This document shows, piece after piece, positions 28,279 through 34,091 of a stretch of DNA of 34,091 nucleotides. The stretch's first letter is position 1. The number at the start of each line of letters is the position of its first letter. The DNA is from Dokdonella sp. (GTDB lineage Bacteria; Pseudomonadota; Gammaproteobacteria; Xanthomonadales; Rhodanobacteraceae). The stretch spans positions 1-34,091 of the forward strand of contig JAHCAR010000026.1 in NCBI GenBank assembly GCA_019634795.1, read 5' to 3'. The notes under the pieces were generated by a model that was not told the DNA's origin, searched no databases, and saw only the letters and a list, made by a program, of their open reading frames with translations. A program made the position numbers and the translations under genes.

Positions 28279-28520
28279 GCTGACATGCGCCGGTGCGCGC
28301 GTCCACCTCGGCAGGCCTTCGATCACCGACGCGCGAGGCACTCGGCATCGGGTGCCTGCAGAAGAATTTGCATCTACCTCTGACTGGAGGGGAACAGAGA
28401 GTGGTGGCCGCGCATCGAGGGTGCTGGCATCGGACTTCGCCGGCCCACCCTCATCAGCCTGTCGGCAGCTTCTCCCGCCAGCGGGAGAAGCATCCCGGGT
28501 CGGATTGACCGGAACTATTT
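28279..28520. other. Non-coding region between trpS and the tandem repeats
   Basis: No gene is supported. A palindromic hairpin CTTCTCCCGCCAGCGGGAGAAG-type element at 28469-28490 (22 bp in total, 9-bp arms) is an inverted relative of the one inside each downstream repeat unit, followed by CATCCCGGGT. Confidence 0.5.
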
Positions 28521-29127
28521 CTTGCCTGCGCCGGCAGGCGGAACGCCCAGGAGCATGCTGCGCGGAGATTTTCCTTCTCCCGCTGGCGGGAGAAGTCCCC
28601 GCAGGGGGATGAGGGTGGTGGTCCGAACTTGCGGACACCCGCACGACGCGTCGAACCAGGCATTCGTCGGCGGCTGGCAGCACTGCGCTGCGAATACCGA
28701 CCAGGAAGGCCCTTCAGCCTCTCTTGCCTGCGCCGGCAGGCGGAACGCCCAGGATCGTGCTGCACGGAGATTTTCCTTCTCCCGCTGGCGGGAGAAGTCC
28801 CCGCAGGGAAATGAGGGTGGTGGTCCGAACTTGCGGACACCCAGACGACGATTCGAACCGCGACATTCGTCGGCCGCTGGCTGCACTGCGCTGCGAATGC
28901 CGCCCTGGAAGGCCCTTCGACCTGTCTTGCCTGCGCCGGCATACGGAACGCCCAGGATCGTGCTGCACGGAGATTTTCCTTCTCCCGCTGGCGGGAGAAG
29001 TCCCCGCAGGGGAATGAGGGTGGTGGTCCGGGCTTGCGGACACCCGCACGATGATTCGAACCCCGGCGTTCGTTGGTCGCTGACTGCGCTGCGCTGCGAA
29101 TGCGGCCCAGGAAGGCCCTTCGGACTG
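28521..29127. repeat. Three tandem ~202-bp repeats with REP-like hairpins
   Basis: Units begin at 28521, 28723 and 28926 (periods 202 and 203 bp), each starting CTTGCCTGCGCCGGCA. Each contains a first hairpin around GCCGGC, a second palindrome CTTCTCCCGC/GCGGGAGAAG (28574, 28776 and 28979), the string ATGAGGGTGGTGGTCCG, and ends in GGAAGGCCCTTC. Copies differ at scattered positions. The period is not a multiple of three throughout and the open frame through it has no family similarity, so it is not treated as coding. Direct spacing excludes CRISPR. Confidence 0.85.
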
Positions 29128-29208
29128 CCGGTGCCGCTCGCCGCTGACGCAGCAGACATGAATTTGGGCCACTATGTAGCAGATTCTTCCCTGATCGGAG
29201 GCGCTGCC

Positions 29209-30132
29209 ATGATTCGGGCCATCGTTGGGCATCCGCTGCGAATCATCGTACTCTGGGGTGTGCTGTTGGTGACATTGCCCGCTTCGCACCCGGCATTTGC
29301 CACGAGCGTCGGGGTGCTGCCCGCCTGGGTCTGCACCCATCCCGATGCGTTGTTCGTGGACGGCTTCCAGCCAACCCAGCCCATCACGCGGCTGCCGTCG
29401 AACGGCAGTGGCGGGGCAGTTGGCAGCATCTCGCGGTCGGTCAGTGTGCCCGGATACGGCACGCATACCGTGTATCTCTCCGTTCCCGCGTCCTATTCGC
29501 CGGCGCATCCGGTGCCGCTGGTGCTGGCCCTGCACGGCCAGGCCGGACCGGGCCAGGGCGATGCCGCGGCGCAGACGGCACGCAATACCTGGGCCCCGGT
29601 GGCCAGCGCGAATGGCTTCATCGTCGTTGCTCCGGTCGGTACCGAGGCCTTGGGCGGCTGGGTGCCGCCGCCACCGAACCCGAGCGACTACGACATTTTT
29701 GCCGCGGCCATCGCCGATGCCGAGGCCGCCTACAACATCGACCGAAGCCGCCGCATCGGCTGGGGATTCTCGGCCGGCGGACATGTCATGTACGACATCG
29801 TCTTCAACGATCTCGGTGCGCCGCTCTCGATCGACACATTCGCCGCCTTCGCGGTCAGTGCCGGCGCCATGAGCTCGTTCGCCTGCAGCAGTGAGGCCGA
29901 ATGCGATGCGATCGTCGCCGCGGCACCCCGCCATATTCCGATCGACATCCATGTCGGCAATGGCGATTCATTGGCGACTCCGGCAATTGATGACTACAAC
30001 CGGTTCCGGGATCACGGCTGGGTCCGATACAGCGATCTCTGGTTCACCCTGTTCGTCGGTATCCACAATTATTCGACGGCACAGCTCGGCGAGATCTGGA
30101 CGCACCTGTGTCCTTTCCAGGCCCTGCCCTGA
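29209..30132 (+). CDS. Secreted alpha/beta-hydrolase esterase (PHB depolymerase/feruloyl esterase-like)
   Basis: A 307-residue exported hydrolase. The signal peptide covers about residues 1-32 (to HPAFAT). Next comes a short segment with DALFVDGFQ at 46-54, an IFxDGF-like motif, then the hydrolase domain. The strand-turn PLVLALHGQ carries the oxyanion HG, and the nucleophile elbow is GFSAGG with Ser188. GNGDSLATPAIDD and IHNYS supply plausible acid and His regions. The overall pattern resembles LpqC-type polyhydroxybutyrate depolymerase or feruloyl esterase proteins; the substrate is unknown. GGAGG at 29197-29201 lies 7 nt before the ATG at 29209. The frame runs upstream through the repeats but is not counted. 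Its stop lies 7 bp from that of convergent dusB, with a small CCTGAG/CTCAGG hairpin between. Confidence 0.8.
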   Translation: MIRAIVGHPLRIIVLWGVLLVTLPASHPAFATSVGVLPAWVCTHPDALFVDGFQPTQPITRLPSNGSGGAVGSISRSVSVPGYGTHTVYLSVPASYSPAHPVPLVLALHGQAGPGQGDAAAQTARNTWAPVASANGFIVVAPVGTEALGGWVPPPPNPSDYDIFAAAIADAEAAYNIDRSRRIGWGFSAGGHVMYDIVFNDLGAPLSIDTFAAFAVSAGAMSSFACSSEAECDAIVAAAPRHIPIDIHVGNGDSLATPAIDDYNRFRDHGWVRYSDLWFTLFVGIHNYSTAQLGEIWTHLCPFQALP

Positions 30133-30139
30133 GCAGGCC

Positions 30140-31126
30140 TCAGGCGGCCAGCGGTTCGAGGTCGGCGAGGCGGTCAAAGTAGTCGCGCGTCATGCGCAAC
30201 TGTGTCGCGGCGCAGTCGGTGCCGTTGACGACGGCACGGAACGCGGCGTTCTCGGGCCGGTCCTTCGCATACCAGCCCAGGTGCTTGCGTGCGATGCGCA
30301 CGCCGGGCAGTTCGCCGTAGAACGCGTAGAGGGCTTCGAGGTGGCCGACCAGGATGTCGCGCACTTCCAGTGGCGAAGGCGCAGCAAGCGTTTCCCCCGT
30401 GTCGAGGAAATGCGCGATCTCGCCAAAGATCCACGGACGCCCCTGGGCGGCGCGGCCGATCATGACGGCATCGGCGCCGGTCTGCGCAAGGACCTGCGCG
30501 GCCTTGTGCGGCGAGTCGATGTCGCCATTGGCAATCAGCGGAATCCGGATCGCATCGCGGATCGCGGCGATCGTCTCGTATTCGGCCTCGCCCTGGTAGA
30601 GGTCGGCGCGCGTGCGCCCGTGCACGGCGAGTGCGGCGATACCGGCATCCTCGGCAATGCGCGCGACGCGCACGCCATTGCGGTTTTCGCGGTTCCAGCC
30701 GGTGCGGATCTTCAGCGTGACCGGCACTTCGACGGCCCGGACCACGGCGCTGACGATGCGCGCGACGAGCCCTTCGTCCTGGAGTAGCGCCGAGCCGGAA
30801 TAGACGTTGCAGACCTTCTTTGCCGGGCAGCCCATGTTGATGTCGATGATCTGTGCGCCGAGGTCGACGTTGTAGCGGGCCGCATCGGCCAGCATCTGCG
30901 GGTCGTAGCCGGCAATCTGCACGCTGACCGGATCGGGCTCGCCGGTGTGGTCGGCGCGGCGCTGCGACTTGGCCGTGTGCCAGAGGCGCGGATCGGCCGT
31001 GGTCATTTCGGACACGGCCAGGCCCGCGCCGAGCCGCTTGCACAGCTGACGGAACGGCTTGTCGGTGACCCCGGCCATCGGCGCGAGCACGACAGGCGGG
31101 TCGATCTGGAAAGGGCCAATCTTCAT
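30140..31126 (-). CDS. dusB: tRNA-dihydrouridine synthase B
   Basis: A flavoenzyme that reduces uridine to dihydrouridine in the D-loop of tRNAs. The 328-residue protein has LAPMAGVTDKPFR at the FMN site (14-26) and DINMGCPAKKV with catalytic Cys100. The FMN-phosphate region HGRTR and NGDI, then ADAVMIGRAAQGRPWIF, place it in the DusB branch. In many gammaproteobacteria fis follows dusB in one operon. Here the next gene downstream is the convergent esterase, so fis is not linked. The ATG at 31126 has no clear Shine-Dalgarno sequence. It lies 36 bp after the helicase stop on the same strand and may be partly read from that operon. Confidence 0.93.
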   Translation of the reverse strand: MKIGPFQIDPPVVLAPMAGVTDKPFRQLCKRLGAGLAVSEMTTADPRLWHTAKSQRRADHTGEPDPVSVQIAGYDPQMLADAARYNVDLGAQIIDINMGCPAKKVCNVYSGSALLQDEGLVARIVSAVVRAVEVPVTLKIRTGWNRENRNGVRVARIAEDAGIAALAVHGRTRADLYQGEAEYETIAAIRDAIRIPLIANGDIDSPHKAAQVLAQTGADAVMIGRAAQGRPWIFGEIAHFLDTGETLAAPSPLEVRDILVGHLEALYAFYGELPGVRIARKHLGWYAKDRPENAAFRAVVNGTDCAATQLRMTRDYFDRLADLEPLAA

Positions 31127-31162
31127 TCGCGAAATAATGTCGGGGCGCGCAAACCCTACGAG

Positions 31163-33238
31163 TCAGCGCCTCTTATCCAAATCATCCAGGAATTCCGAGA
31201 CAGGCTCGACCCCGCTGACCAGCAAGTCTTCGCGGGCTCGGGTGCACGCAACATACAGGAGATGCCGCTCGGTGGCATAGATCTCGGCCAGATCACCATC
31301 GTCCGTGACCTGCTCGATTCGGGACTGCAGCGGAACGACTTCGTCATCGCAAGCCATCACTGCAACAGCGCGAAACTCCAGGCCCTTGGCGAGATGCATG
31401 GTACAGACGGTGGCCTTTCCGACCGTGGACCGCATGCGCTCGTCGAGCGTGACGTAGGGGATGCTCGCCAGGCTCAGGGCTTTCGCTGCGCGTTGAAGTT
31501 CGGCGTCCGAGCGGACGATGACGCCGATTTCATGGGGCTGTGTGCTTGCAGTGGCCCGCTCCTTCAGCCAGGCGGAAACGAATTGGATCTCGTCCTCAAC
31601 CGAGTCTGCACGAACAACCAACGGCTTCGGGCCGTTGAATACCGATACCGTGCCTTTTCTGACTTCGATGAGGCCATCCACGTCGGACACGGACTCGCCA
31701 AGCAGGCAATCGGCGCAGGCGCGGATCTGGTGTGAGGTCCGGTAGTTCACGACGAGCGTTCGCGATCGGCCGCGCACGTCCACGCCGAGCGACTTCCACG
31801 AGAACGGCGTCTGGAAGATGCGCTGGCCCAGATCGCCTGCGAAGAAGAGAGCATTGGGTCGGTCGCGTCCGATCGCAGCGAGGAACCGGAGTTGCGCAAT
31901 GGAGATGTCCTGCGCCTCGTCGACGACGATGTGCTCAAACGGCGGATGCGGCCGCTCGGCAAGTTCGGTCGCCAGGCGCGTGAACACGCCGGCCATGGTC
32001 GTTAAGCCGTCGGCGATCAAGCCAGAGCGAACCGCATCGAAGACGCTCCACAGCGTCTGGCGCTGCGCATCGGACAATCGTGTCTTGCGACCGAGTCGCT
32101 TCACGTCCCGATACTCATCCCAGGACCCGATCTGCCAGGCATCGACCACCTGGTCCCACTCGTTCAGCAGGAAGGGAGTGCCGAAGCGAAGATTGCCCAA
32201 CTGCTCGGCAGCCCGGGTCATTCGCGCCGTGAGGTCCCCGCGCGACAGCAGGCGCACGGGGCCAAACTGGCTTTCGTGCAGGCGGAGGCCTGCCGCGTCC
32301 ATGGACATGACATCGATGCGTTCAGCCAGACGCGGTTCCGAACTGATCAGGCGCCGCAGCTTCGCGCGCAGGGCGTTGGCCAAACTGTCCGAGAACGTCG
32401 TCAGCAGGACACGCGCCTCGGGATTGTTGCGCGCCAGATACACGGCGCGATGCAACGCGACGATCGTCTTGCCTGTCCCTGCTGAACCAGAAACCCGGGC
32501 AGGTCCCGAAAAGTCCCGTTCGACGAGCTGTCGCTGCTCGGGGTGGAGGAAGATCGTCCACTTGTCCCACGGCGCCGACAAGGCGCGTTCCAGTTCCTCG
32601 ACGCTGGAAACCACACGAAAGCGACGCTGTGCATCGGGATGCTCGAATGGGCTGGTCTCAGGTGCCGAGGGCTTCGCAGCCTTGGGCTCACCGCCGGTAG
32701 CGAGTTCGAGCAGCGCCTCGGCCGCCTCGGCAGGAAGGTGGTCTACCAGGTCCAGCAGCGTGTCTTCCGTGGCTTGCCGTACGTCCCCGATCCACTCCTG
32801 CGGCACACCGTAGCCAAGCAGCAGCTTTTCCGACGTCGAGGAGAACAGCGCCGGCTTTGCGGCCGATACAGGCGCCTCGACGTAGACGGGGACGCGAACC
32901 TCCTCTACGCGCTCACGGATTTCGACGAACTGCGCTGCGCCAGTCTTCGGGTGCACGTCGAGCTTGCGACGCTCGGCCCAGCGATAAGCGCGGTCGTGGT
33001 GGTCGACGTAGCAAAGCAGCAAGCTTCCATTCGATCGATGCACGATCAGCCGAATGTCCGCATTCACGCGCACCGACCAGAAGTTGCTGTCCCGCGCGTT
33101 GTCGAGCTTGTGGAAGCTCATGCCCGGGTTGGCCAGGTTGAGCTGCAGGTCGAACGCCGTGGTCTTGACGGCCTTCTGCTCGTCGCTGGTTAGGCGGGCG
33201 AGGCTGTCGGTGAAGGTGTCGGCTATTCGGAAATGCAT
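31163..33238 (-). CDS. UvrD/Rep-family helicase with RelE-like N-terminal domain
   Basis: A 691-residue superfamily 1 helicase. Motifs: Walker A GSAGTGKT (251-258), II VVDEAQD (438-444), III FFAGDLGQ (465-472), IV NYRTS (498-502), V TMHLAKGLEF (613-622) and VI YVACTRARE (662-670). All catalytic residues look intact. The first ~95 residues, with NFWSVRVNADIRLIVHRS and YVDHHDRAYRWAERR, show the beta-hairpin pattern of RelE/ParE toxins. It is followed by a ~150-residue linker with short helical segments. The ATG at 33238 overlaps the upstream stop as TGATG; GTG at 33241 is equally possible. It is the third gene of a coupled operon with a DUF4276/TOPRIM-like gene and an ATPase, resembling Gabija in content. 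A role in phage defence is inferred, not shown. Confidence 0.88.
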   Translation of the reverse strand: MHFRIADTFTDSLARLTSDEQKAVKTTAFDLQLNLANPGMSFHKLDNARDSNFWSVRVNADIRLIVHRSNGSLLLCYVDHHDRAYRWAERRKLDVHPKTGAAQFVEIRERVEEVRVPVYVEAPVSAAKPALFSSTSEKLLLGYGVPQEWIGDVRQATEDTLLDLVDHLPAEAAEALLELATGGEPKAAKPSAPETSPFEHPDAQRRFRVVSSVEELERALSAPWDKWTIFLHPEQRQLVERDFSGPARVSGSAGTGKTIVALHRAVYLARNNPEARVLLTTFSDSLANALRAKLRRLISSEPRLAERIDVMSMDAAGLRLHESQFGPVRLLSRGDLTARMTRAAEQLGNLRFGTPFLLNEWDQVVDAWQIGSWDEYRDVKRLGRKTRLSDAQRQTLWSVFDAVRSGLIADGLTTMAGVFTRLATELAERPHPPFEHIVVDEAQDISIAQLRFLAAIGRDRPNALFFAGDLGQRIFQTPFSWKSLGVDVRGRSRTLVVNYRTSHQIRACADCLLGESVSDVDGLIEVRKGTVSVFNGPKPLVVRADSVEDEIQFVSAWLKERATASTQPHEIGVIVRSDAELQRAAKALSLASIPYVTLDERMRSTVGKATVCTMHLAKGLEFRAVAVMACDDEVVPLQSRIEQVTDDGDLAEIYATERHLLYVACTRAREDLLVSGVEPVSEFLDDLDKRR

Positions 33239-33840
33239 CACCCACCTTCATTAGAAGTCACTAAGTTGACGTCCCACTCTTTACAAAGCTTGCGGAACGA
33301 ACGACTGTTGTCGAACGCTTGCTGCATGTCTATCGCTGCAGCGAACGCCGGTTGGTCGAGCACCTCGCTGTATGTTCCACCTTCCATATTTCGGCGAATC
33401 CAGCCCTTCGCGTCGCGCGGAGATTCGGCATCGACCGTGGCGCCCTCCGGGTAACGGAAGCCCCTACTTCCATCGAGGGAACGCCCAGCCGCAATGAACC
33501 ATGCTTCGAATTCGCGATTGGCAATGACAACGGAGATCCGCCGGCGCGGCAAAAGTTGCTCTGCGCGTCGGTACAAATCTGCCGCTAACGTTGCTGGACA
33601 GTCATCGTCTGCATCCAGCAACACTAGCACCCAACCTTGATCGCCGCACTTTGCCGCAGCAAGCAGCAATTGCTTTCGAAACTCATCCTCGCGATTGAGA
33701 AATCGGTCACGGTGGACGCGAATGGGGCGCAACGGGTGTGCATACTGGTCGGCAGGGCGCCAAGCGTGCATGCGCCGCAATAACTCAGGAAGCGCAGCCA
33801 CCTCGCCGTGGCCCTCGACGATCGTAGCGATCTGAATCAT
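33238..33840 (-). CDS. DUF4276-family, TOPRIM-like protein
   Basis: A 200-residue protein. The N-terminus IATIVEGHGE (VEGxxE at 8-13) and the DxD-type LLDADDD at 74-80 give the acidic pattern of a TOPRIM fold: Glu after the first strand, an Asp cluster after the third. NREFEAWFIAA at 108-118 is typical of DUF4276 proteins. TOPRIM domains cut or join nucleic acid with Mg2+, so nuclease activity is possible but not established for this family. The ATG at 33840 overlaps the ATPase stop as ATGA, and its own stop overlaps the helicase start. Both overlaps imply one co-translated system. Base composition appears somewhat less G+C-rich than the housekeeping genes, which may indicate transfer. Confidence 0.75.
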   Translation of the reverse strand: MIQIATIVEGHGEVAALPELLRRMHAWRPADQYAHPLRPIRVHRDRFLNREDEFRKQLLLAAAKCGDQGWVLVLLDADDDCPATLAADLYRRAEQLLPRRRISVVIANREFEAWFIAAGRSLDGSRGFRYPEGATVDAESPRDAKGWIRRNMEGGTYSEVLDQPAFAAAIDMQQAFDNSRSFRKLCKEWDVNLVTSNEGG

Positions 33841-34091
33841 GCAGATGGCATCTCATTGAACAGGTCGGAGTTTGCTGCTTTCTCCTGTCGTTCGATACTC
33901 TCGCGATCTGGCGCAAGTTGGTCCATTCTTAACAGCTCGCCAGCCGAAAAGAGATGTTCGCGCATGACCTTGCGTGATGCATCATCCAACGGAGCAATCT
34001 TCGTCTCACCTCCATCTGAAACCACAGCCAGTACTGCGTCGGCATCAATGCTTTGATCGTCCAGCAGATCCGGGCTGTGACTTGTCACAAG
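33837..34091 (-). CDS. ABC/AAA-type ATPase, C-terminal end only (5' part outside window)
   Basis: Only the last 84 residues are visible. They open with LVTSHSPDLLDD, the H-loop (switch histidine) block near the C-terminus of SMC/OLD/AAA15/AAA21-type ATPases that act with TOPRIM partners. The sequence continues SIDADAVLAVVSDGGETKIAPLD-like residues and ends AGELLRMDQL and NEMPSA. The Walker A, signature and Walker B motifs must lie outside the window, so its completeness is unknown. The stop TGA at 33837-33839 overlaps the ATG of the DUF4276 gene. The frame continues through the window edge, so the start is not shown. Naming rests on the short H-loop block and the context. Confidence 0.7.
   Translation of the reverse strand, partial: LVTSHSPDLLDDQSIDADAVLAVVSDGGETKIAPLDDASRKVMREHLFSAGELLRMDQLAPDRESIERQEKAANSDLFNEMPSA

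Follow-up and report, generated by a model that had tools for sequence, protein, structure and literature searches.

What kind of system is encoded by three tightly coupled genes that stand beside dusB in a Dokdonella genome? They occupy the minus strand at one end of contig JAHCAR010000026.1 (assembly GCA_019634795.1), and this whole contig (positions 1-34091; 34,091 nucleotides) is the window analyzed here. It is contig C19 of a draft assembly, G000, that is 85% complete; C-numbers denote contigs of this genome and L-numbers denote the loci that were compared. A preliminary description had read the three genes, which encode an ATPase end, a TOPRIM-like protein, and a UvrD-type helicase, as a single machine resembling the Gabija defense system. 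We arrived at a different answer. The window very probably contains the 3' half of a single operon, inserted upstream of dusB, with the order REase-MTase-HEC-01A-HEC-01B-RelE-UvrD, where a restriction endonuclease (REase), a DNA methyltransferase (MTase), and the helicase form a constant backbone and HEC-01 is a self-sufficient cargo in a slot.

The first two genes were identified as HEC-01, which stands for Hma-embedded candidate 01 in PADLOC-DB 2.0.0. The gene at the contig end (33837..34091, minus strand) is readable over its final 84 codons, the last fifth only, and its frame is open up to the end of the contig. These 84 residues match the PADLOC model HEC-01A (PDLC04178) at 4e-28 over profile positions 322-394 of 399. 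The second gene (33238..33840, minus strand) encodes a DUF4276 protein of 200 amino acids that matches HEC-01B (PDLC04196) at 3e-86 and Pfam DUF4276 at 4e-14. The HEC-01A model had matches in 14 of 14 control genomes at an expect value (E) of 0.001, so little weight can be given to weak matches, and the HEC-01B model had matches in none of the 14. In the window's own genome, the next best HEC-01A match after the window ATPase reached only 5e-7. Furthermore, the full-length ATPase of a relative (L048) matches HEC-01A at 8e-179 and is closer to HEC-01A than to AriA. The rest of the window ATPase was not found when the own genome was searched with the HEC-01A profile. Five other matches, which lie on four other contigs in open reading frames 360 to 1175 codons long, were rejected as belonging to other genes.

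To define the genes that regularly accompany HEC-01B, one genome per species was scanned with an alignment of six relatives, and the best 80 of 187 candidates were used, with at least 2.2 kb of downstream sequence at 73 and 4 kb of upstream sequence at 73. A homologous ATPase end lies directly upstream of the DUF4276 gene in 76 of these 80 loci; none was found in L050, whose contig starts there, or in L119, L123, and L125. Gene order and the 4-base overlap between ATPase and DUF4276 genes are kept in most of the 80. A helicase of the window type, however, follows the pair in only two (L048 and L064). The pair is therefore a unit of which the helicase is not a regular part. Within the taxonomic order to which the window belongs, the DUF4276 protein is rare, being matched in 2 of 60 related genomes (own included), and scans of viral contigs for it recovered no relative.

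The division into an ATPase and a separate TOPRIM-like protein, which the preliminary description had proposed, agrees with the HEC-01A and HEC-01B matches. Among 45 aligned DUF4276 sequences (the window plus 44 of the 80 loci), E9, D76, D78, E110, E112, and R142 are invariant, and we infer that the acidic residues (E and DxD) represent TOPRIM motifs. For a predicted model of the protein (mean predicted local distance difference test [pLDDT] of 91.9), Foldseek alone returned nothing significant, although the four best matches in a second look were TOPRIM regions of OLD proteins. Two relatives of the pair have features of their own. L056 (8001-8603) is a DUF4276 copy with one in-frame stop, and on a Streptomyces plasmid (L041, 6751-13563) the ATPase-DUF4276 pair stands 1.1 kb from an ATPase-helicase pair that is Gabija-like by annotation.

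The third gene (31163..33238, minus strand) encodes a helicase of 692 amino acids. The two overlaps in the preliminary description were confirmed, namely ATGA (ATPase stop and DUF4276 start, at 33840-33837 on the minus strand) and TGATG (DUF4276 stop and helicase ATG, 33236..33240, minus strand). The helicase ATG is at 33238, and the automatic open reading frame call begins one codon earlier, with a GTG at 33241. As had been described, the helicase is intact: N-terminal (8e-18) and C-terminal (2e-20) UvrD domains were matched in Pfam between residues 232 and 676 (31166..32548, minus strand). The motifs, which we take to be Walker A, DEAQD, GDxxQ, NYRTS, and VACTRA, are all intact, and 12 aligned sequences (the window, L048, L064, and 9 of 11 viral loci) show no or almost no variation in them. 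At its N terminus, the protein may carry a RelE/HigB-like domain (approximately 32954..33238, minus strand). Residues 37-82 match Pfam HigB-like at 6e-4, which is weaker than the curated cut-off of Pfam, and residues 1-87 match a RelE-like PHROG family at 0.009; the region is conserved in the 12 sequences. An AlphaFold model of the full helicase was poor (pLDDT of 69, predicted template modeling score of 0.42), and nothing was drawn from it beyond the UvrD matches.

Could the helicase nonetheless work with HEC-01, so that an ATPase sensor, a separate TOPRIM nuclease, and a UvrD helicase form a three-component machine like Gabija? The tight coupling of the genes by overlaps would fit such a machine, as would the recurrence of the three-gene order in L048 and L064. 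The helicase also matches GajB profiles of PADLOC, at 4e-25 for the best, but a NERD+UvrD profile matches better (2e-30), and many UvrD-like helicases would match GajB. The co-occurrence counts speak against the machine, since 78 of the best 80 HEC-01 relatives show no such helicase, with at least 2.2 kb of downstream sequence at 73 of the 80.

Helicase loci with at least 48% identity were gathered from viral contigs, plasmids, and whole genomes. The resulting 41 loci comprise 11 viral contigs, 6 plasmids, 5 genomes of the order, and 19 of the class and phylum; 8 of 47 helicase plasmid records and 14 of 17 further genomes were examined. The viral set consists of IMG/VR contigs, some of which may be plasmid or host pieces, and a search of phage records at an E of 1e-20 gave no match to the helicase. 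Together, the window and 40 of the 41 loci fall into 37 clusters at 90% identity. Excluded from the 41 were L048 and L064, which derive from the HEC-01 search, and five loci of less than 40% identity (L154, L155, L161, L162, and L163).

An MTase homologous to that of L048 lies upstream of the helicase on the same strand in 38 of the 41 loci, the exceptions being L145, L152, and L192. The L048 MTase matches the PADLOC model MTase_III (PDLC03632) at an E of 0, and the REase of L048 belongs to the NCBIfam BPTD_3080 family (NF046055; score of 1344 against a cut-off of 800). A homolog of this REase is present in 31 of the 38 loci with both MTase and helicase. Of the other seven, five begin at or inside the MTase (L137, L139, L158, L191, and L199), and L143 and L144 have approximately 1.5 kb upstream without a match. 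The middle of the MTase varies between loci and is presumably the target-recognition part, as would be expected. Given the MTase in 38 of 41 loci, the helicase is the last gene of a backbone, REase (BPTD_3080)-MTase-RelE-UvrD.

HEC-01 has only occasional ties to this backbone. Among the best 80 HEC-01 loci, the MTase is present in three: L048 and L064 have the MTase, HEC-01, and the helicase, and in L049 the MTase and HEC-01 are present but the helicase is not. Neither MTase nor helicase occurs in the fetched stretch of the remaining 77. L048 carries the complete five-gene order predicted for the window, REase-MTase-HEC-01A-HEC-01B-helicase. The preliminary description had named the joint presence of the three genes in other genomes as a test of its reading. 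The outcome is mixed: they do stand together in L048 and L064, but only within a restriction-modification operon.

None of the five excluded loci below 40% identity has the backbone MTase. All of them match, upstream, the large DEAD/DEAH helicase of L155, L154 doing so partly. Four of the five (L155, L161, L162, and L163; 33-34% identity) represent a second RelE-UvrD branch that stands behind this helicase of approximately 2,100 residues in a different, defense-like operon. In L155, an Escherichia coli plasmid typed IncY, a DNA methyltransferase precedes the large helicase.

What lies between MTase and helicase differs from operon to operon. The distance ranges from 3 bases to 7.2 kb, and in 6 of the 38 loci the slot is empty, with less than 30 bases (L141, L147, L148, L149, L194, and L201). 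From the 32 slots of more than 30 bases, we scanned 21 proteins of 17 loci against PADLOC and 20 of these 21 against Pfam. PADLOC matches at an E of 1e-5 or better were obtained at 10 of the 17 loci. These cargos include PDC-M32A in L157 (by BLAST, the same PDC-M32A is in L137, L138, and L139); IetA and IetS in L160 (with the same IetAS identified in L190 by BLAST); PDC-M68B next to a protein with an ABC-3C domain in L188; LmuA, LmuB, and PDC-S05 (Lamassu) in L191; an HNH protein in L196; HEC-07 in L197 and L199; and an OLD/AriA-like ATPase in L200. The slot of L158 holds a divergent HEC-01A followed by a protein of 215 residues with similar acidic motifs by eye, and L144 has one weak match (7e-6). 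The defense context that the preliminary description had given to the locus is supported.

The remaining seven slot loci (L193, L146, L150, L153, L202, L198, and L156) had no PADLOC match. The slot protein of L193 has an AAA domain in Pfam. Those of L156 (10406-11101), L146 (3321-4073), L150 (6393-6986), L153 (5789-6613), L198 (5311-5955), and L202 (5347-5985) have no match in PADLOC or, at an E of 0.001, in Pfam, and slot proteins without a family match are candidate new defense modules. Many operons have a second variable space, between REase and MTase, that ranges from none to 4 kb (L153, L160, L193, L197, L202, and L205); in L160 it contains an NYN-domain protein.

The borders of the slot are precise to a few bases. 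Between L048, which carries HEC-01, and L149, whose slot is empty, DNA homology breaks off within the final MTase codons and is regained at the ATG of the helicase. L146 and L138, whose backbones are approximately 86 to 90% identical and whose cargos differ, show these borders as well. On the helicase side, DNA homology between the window and L156 sets in at the start of the helicase (base 33240, within the TGATG), and the stretch compared before it shows none.

Cargo and backbone also have differing histories in trees that were built by quick searches with support from the Shimodaira-Hasegawa-like approximate likelihood ratio test (SH-aLRT) only. The helicase tree pairs the window with its sister L156 (80% identity, SH-aLRT of 99), whose operon has the order REase-MTase-231-amino-acid protein-helicase; L048 clusters with L148/L149, and L064 joins L158 and L140. 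A single clade of the helicases from the three HEC-01 operons (window, L048, and L064) was rejected by the approximately unbiased test (p-AU = 4e-44). In the DUF4276 tree, by comparison, the window clusters with L048 and L049 (SH-aLRT of 95), and L064 lies among sequences from outside the MTase operon. A single clade of four HEC-01B sequences (L048, L049, L064, and, by prediction, the window) was not rejected (p-AU = 0.31), and we therefore make no claim that HEC-01 entered repeatedly. Because HEC-01 operons occupy three places in the helicase tree, the helicase and the pair do not have one shared history; judging from these phylogenies, cargo and backbone have reassorted. With the helicase found in MTase operons that hold many other cargos, and with the histories of the helicases in the three HEC-01 operons differing, the co-occurrence counts and the helicase tree led us to reject the Gabija-like machine, which we regard as highly improbable. 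The claim of one machine from three genes thus did not hold: only 2 of the best 80 relatives have the helicase behind the pair, 38 of the 41 helicase loci have the MTase upstream, and the helicase has a separate history.

Another possibility is that HEC-01 was recruited as a working part of the restriction-modification system, for example, as a back-up that fires when restriction fails. The overlapping start and stop codons imply coexpression, and the grouping of HEC-01B from the window, L048, and L049 is in line with recruitment, as L048 and L049 stand behind the MTase and the window is predicted to do so. Yet sister backbones hold unrelated modules or, in 6 of 38 cases, no cargo at all, which argues that no particular cargo is needed. 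The HEC-01B of L064 also groups outside this operon, with the reservation that one clade of four was not rejected. On balance, we consider recruitment unlikely and favor HEC-01 as an autonomous module riding in a restriction-modification operon.

If the window is the 3' half of an operon, the other half should be found elsewhere in the same genome. A search of the own genome with the REase of L048 gave one match (71% identity), located at the end of contig C34 (247914-248615 of 248616). The first 234 residues of this REase are readable; they match NF046055 at 4e-93 (profile positions 1-218 of 970) and are 86% identical to the REase of L156, the highest value among the loci compared. On the window side, the operon ends at a chromosomal gene that we take to be dusB, following the earlier reader (30140..31126, minus strand). 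This gene starts 36 bases downstream of the helicase and was found in all 10 searched genomes of the genus, own included.

Eight of nine genus-mates with dusB were examined for the corresponding site. In L217, L218, L219, and L223, the two genes at the end of C34 stand right beside dusB, arranged as expected and with no intervening operon. In L220, L221, and L222, the nearer region is less than 400 bases from dusB, and the gene that we presume to be a ribokinase is absent or farther away. In L224 (5316-6083; genus-mate G007), dusB is matched only from residue 100 onward and has other neighbors; this locus, a rearrangement at the same spot as the window insertion, is uninformative on the empty site. 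Homology to the empty site of L217 ends at window base 31111, in the first codons of dusB (junction 31111..31126), and at base 11579 of L187. The preliminary description had placed a boundary at dusB, and the break in homology bears this out. Because the C34-end genes and dusB adjoin in genus-mates and homology breaks there, C34 and C19 most likely carry the two ends of a single insertion. Approximately 6 kb, consisting of the rest of the REase, the MTase, and the start of the ATPase, is most likely missing from the draft. The two junction stretches share no 9-mer, and thus no target-site repeat was seen. Beside the insert (31111-31163), approximately 65 bases of the empty site (L217 6786-6850), covering the first codons of dusB and the sequence just upstream, have no counterpart, so dusB may have lost its own leader, perhaps including a promoter, or may receive one from the operon.

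Alternatively, the gap between C34 and C19 might hold more, such as another cargo or a broken REase or MTase, and the locus would then be the relic of a defense island instead of one working operon. The incompleteness of the draft leaves room for this, the backbone MTase was not found in the own assembly, and the slots of relatives can be as long as 7.2 kb. However, all readable pieces are open without stops and their conserved residues are intact, and we judge a relic to be quite improbable.

The biochemical activities of the operon, and its anti-phage role, are predicted here from protein families. By analogy to sensors paired with TOPRIM proteins in OLD and PARIS, the ABC/OLD-type ATPase would most likely sense infection and control the DUF4276 protein, which would act as a metal-dependent nuclease effector. 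The helicase would most likely serve the restriction enzyme by translocating along, or unwinding, foreign DNA that is cut or unmodified, and its RelE-like domain could contribute binding or cleavage specificity.

Elsewhere in the window, three tandem copies of a unit of approximately 203 bases occupy 28459-29126, with 78 to 100% likeness to the reference copy and a spacing of 202 to 203. Since they overlap the 5' end of the open frame 28522-30132, the true start of that frame is probably further in. Scans of the window for Rfam families (gathering threshold) and tRNAs gave no match.

In place of a misread hybrid of Gabija and PARIS, the locus reveals a general pattern that can be mined, in which defense genes are swapped at one fixed position. 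More tentatively, and with somewhat less than an even chance, the REase-MTase-[slot]-RelE-UvrD operon could be a dedicated platform for the exchange of defense modules. Replacement between fixed borders would probably occur through recombination within conserved sequence at the 3' end of the MTase and the 5' end of the helicase, one backbone could collect and spread complete second systems, and the unmatched cargos would be candidate new systems. The precise borders, the related backbones with differing or empty slots (L048 versus L148/L149; L146 versus L138), and the cargos without a PADLOC match at 7 of the 17 scanned loci yield a short list of testable candidates. How defense modules swap, and whether embedded modules depend on the host operon, become testable as well. 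Searches of openly licensed PMC papers listed no title or abstract opening that describes such a slot in BPTD_3080/RelE-UvrD operons; these papers do not include Payne 2024, reportedly the founding preprint of HEC-01, and a description may already be in print.

Compared with known systems, the window pair agrees with HEC-01 in matching both models and in having the order and 4-base overlap of most relatives. It differs in that HEC-01 is a two-gene module in PADLOC, whereas the window pair is followed by a helicase and predicted to be surrounded by a restriction-modification operon. OLD is one fused protein and the TOPRIM protein of PARIS (AriB) belongs to DUF4435; in contrast, the partner of the window ATPase is a separate DUF4276 protein with no DUF4435 match among its listed Pfam matches. 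Gabija shares with the window the presence of ATPase, TOPRIM-like, and UvrD-like helicase genes. However, GajA is one fused ATPase-TOPRIM protein, whereas these parts are two genes in the window, where the helicase comes from another operon backbone and is not a constant partner; to our knowledge, GajB also lacks a RelE domain. The kinship to BPTD_3080/MTase_III restriction-modification lies in the REase (NF046055) and MTase (PDLC03632) of L048 and the REase start in the own genome, and the differences are a third backbone gene, the RelE-UvrD helicase, and the cargo slot.

Embedding of one defense in another is already known. In the text consulted from PMC12255303, PMC12629846, and PMC12988326, Septu and HECs are embedded in Hma, and DarTG2 and PrrC in type I restriction-modification. 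Several HECs, including HEC-06, were antiviral in assays, and the portion of PMC12988326 consulted does not name HEC-01 among them. As in those cases, so far as these texts describe them, a defense module in the window's operon stands between genes of a host system. Here, however, the host is a BPTD_3080/MTase_III operon, and the borders of the slot are fixed at the MTase end and the helicase start. The slot in the BPTD_3080/RelE-UvrD operon is a variant of that pattern.

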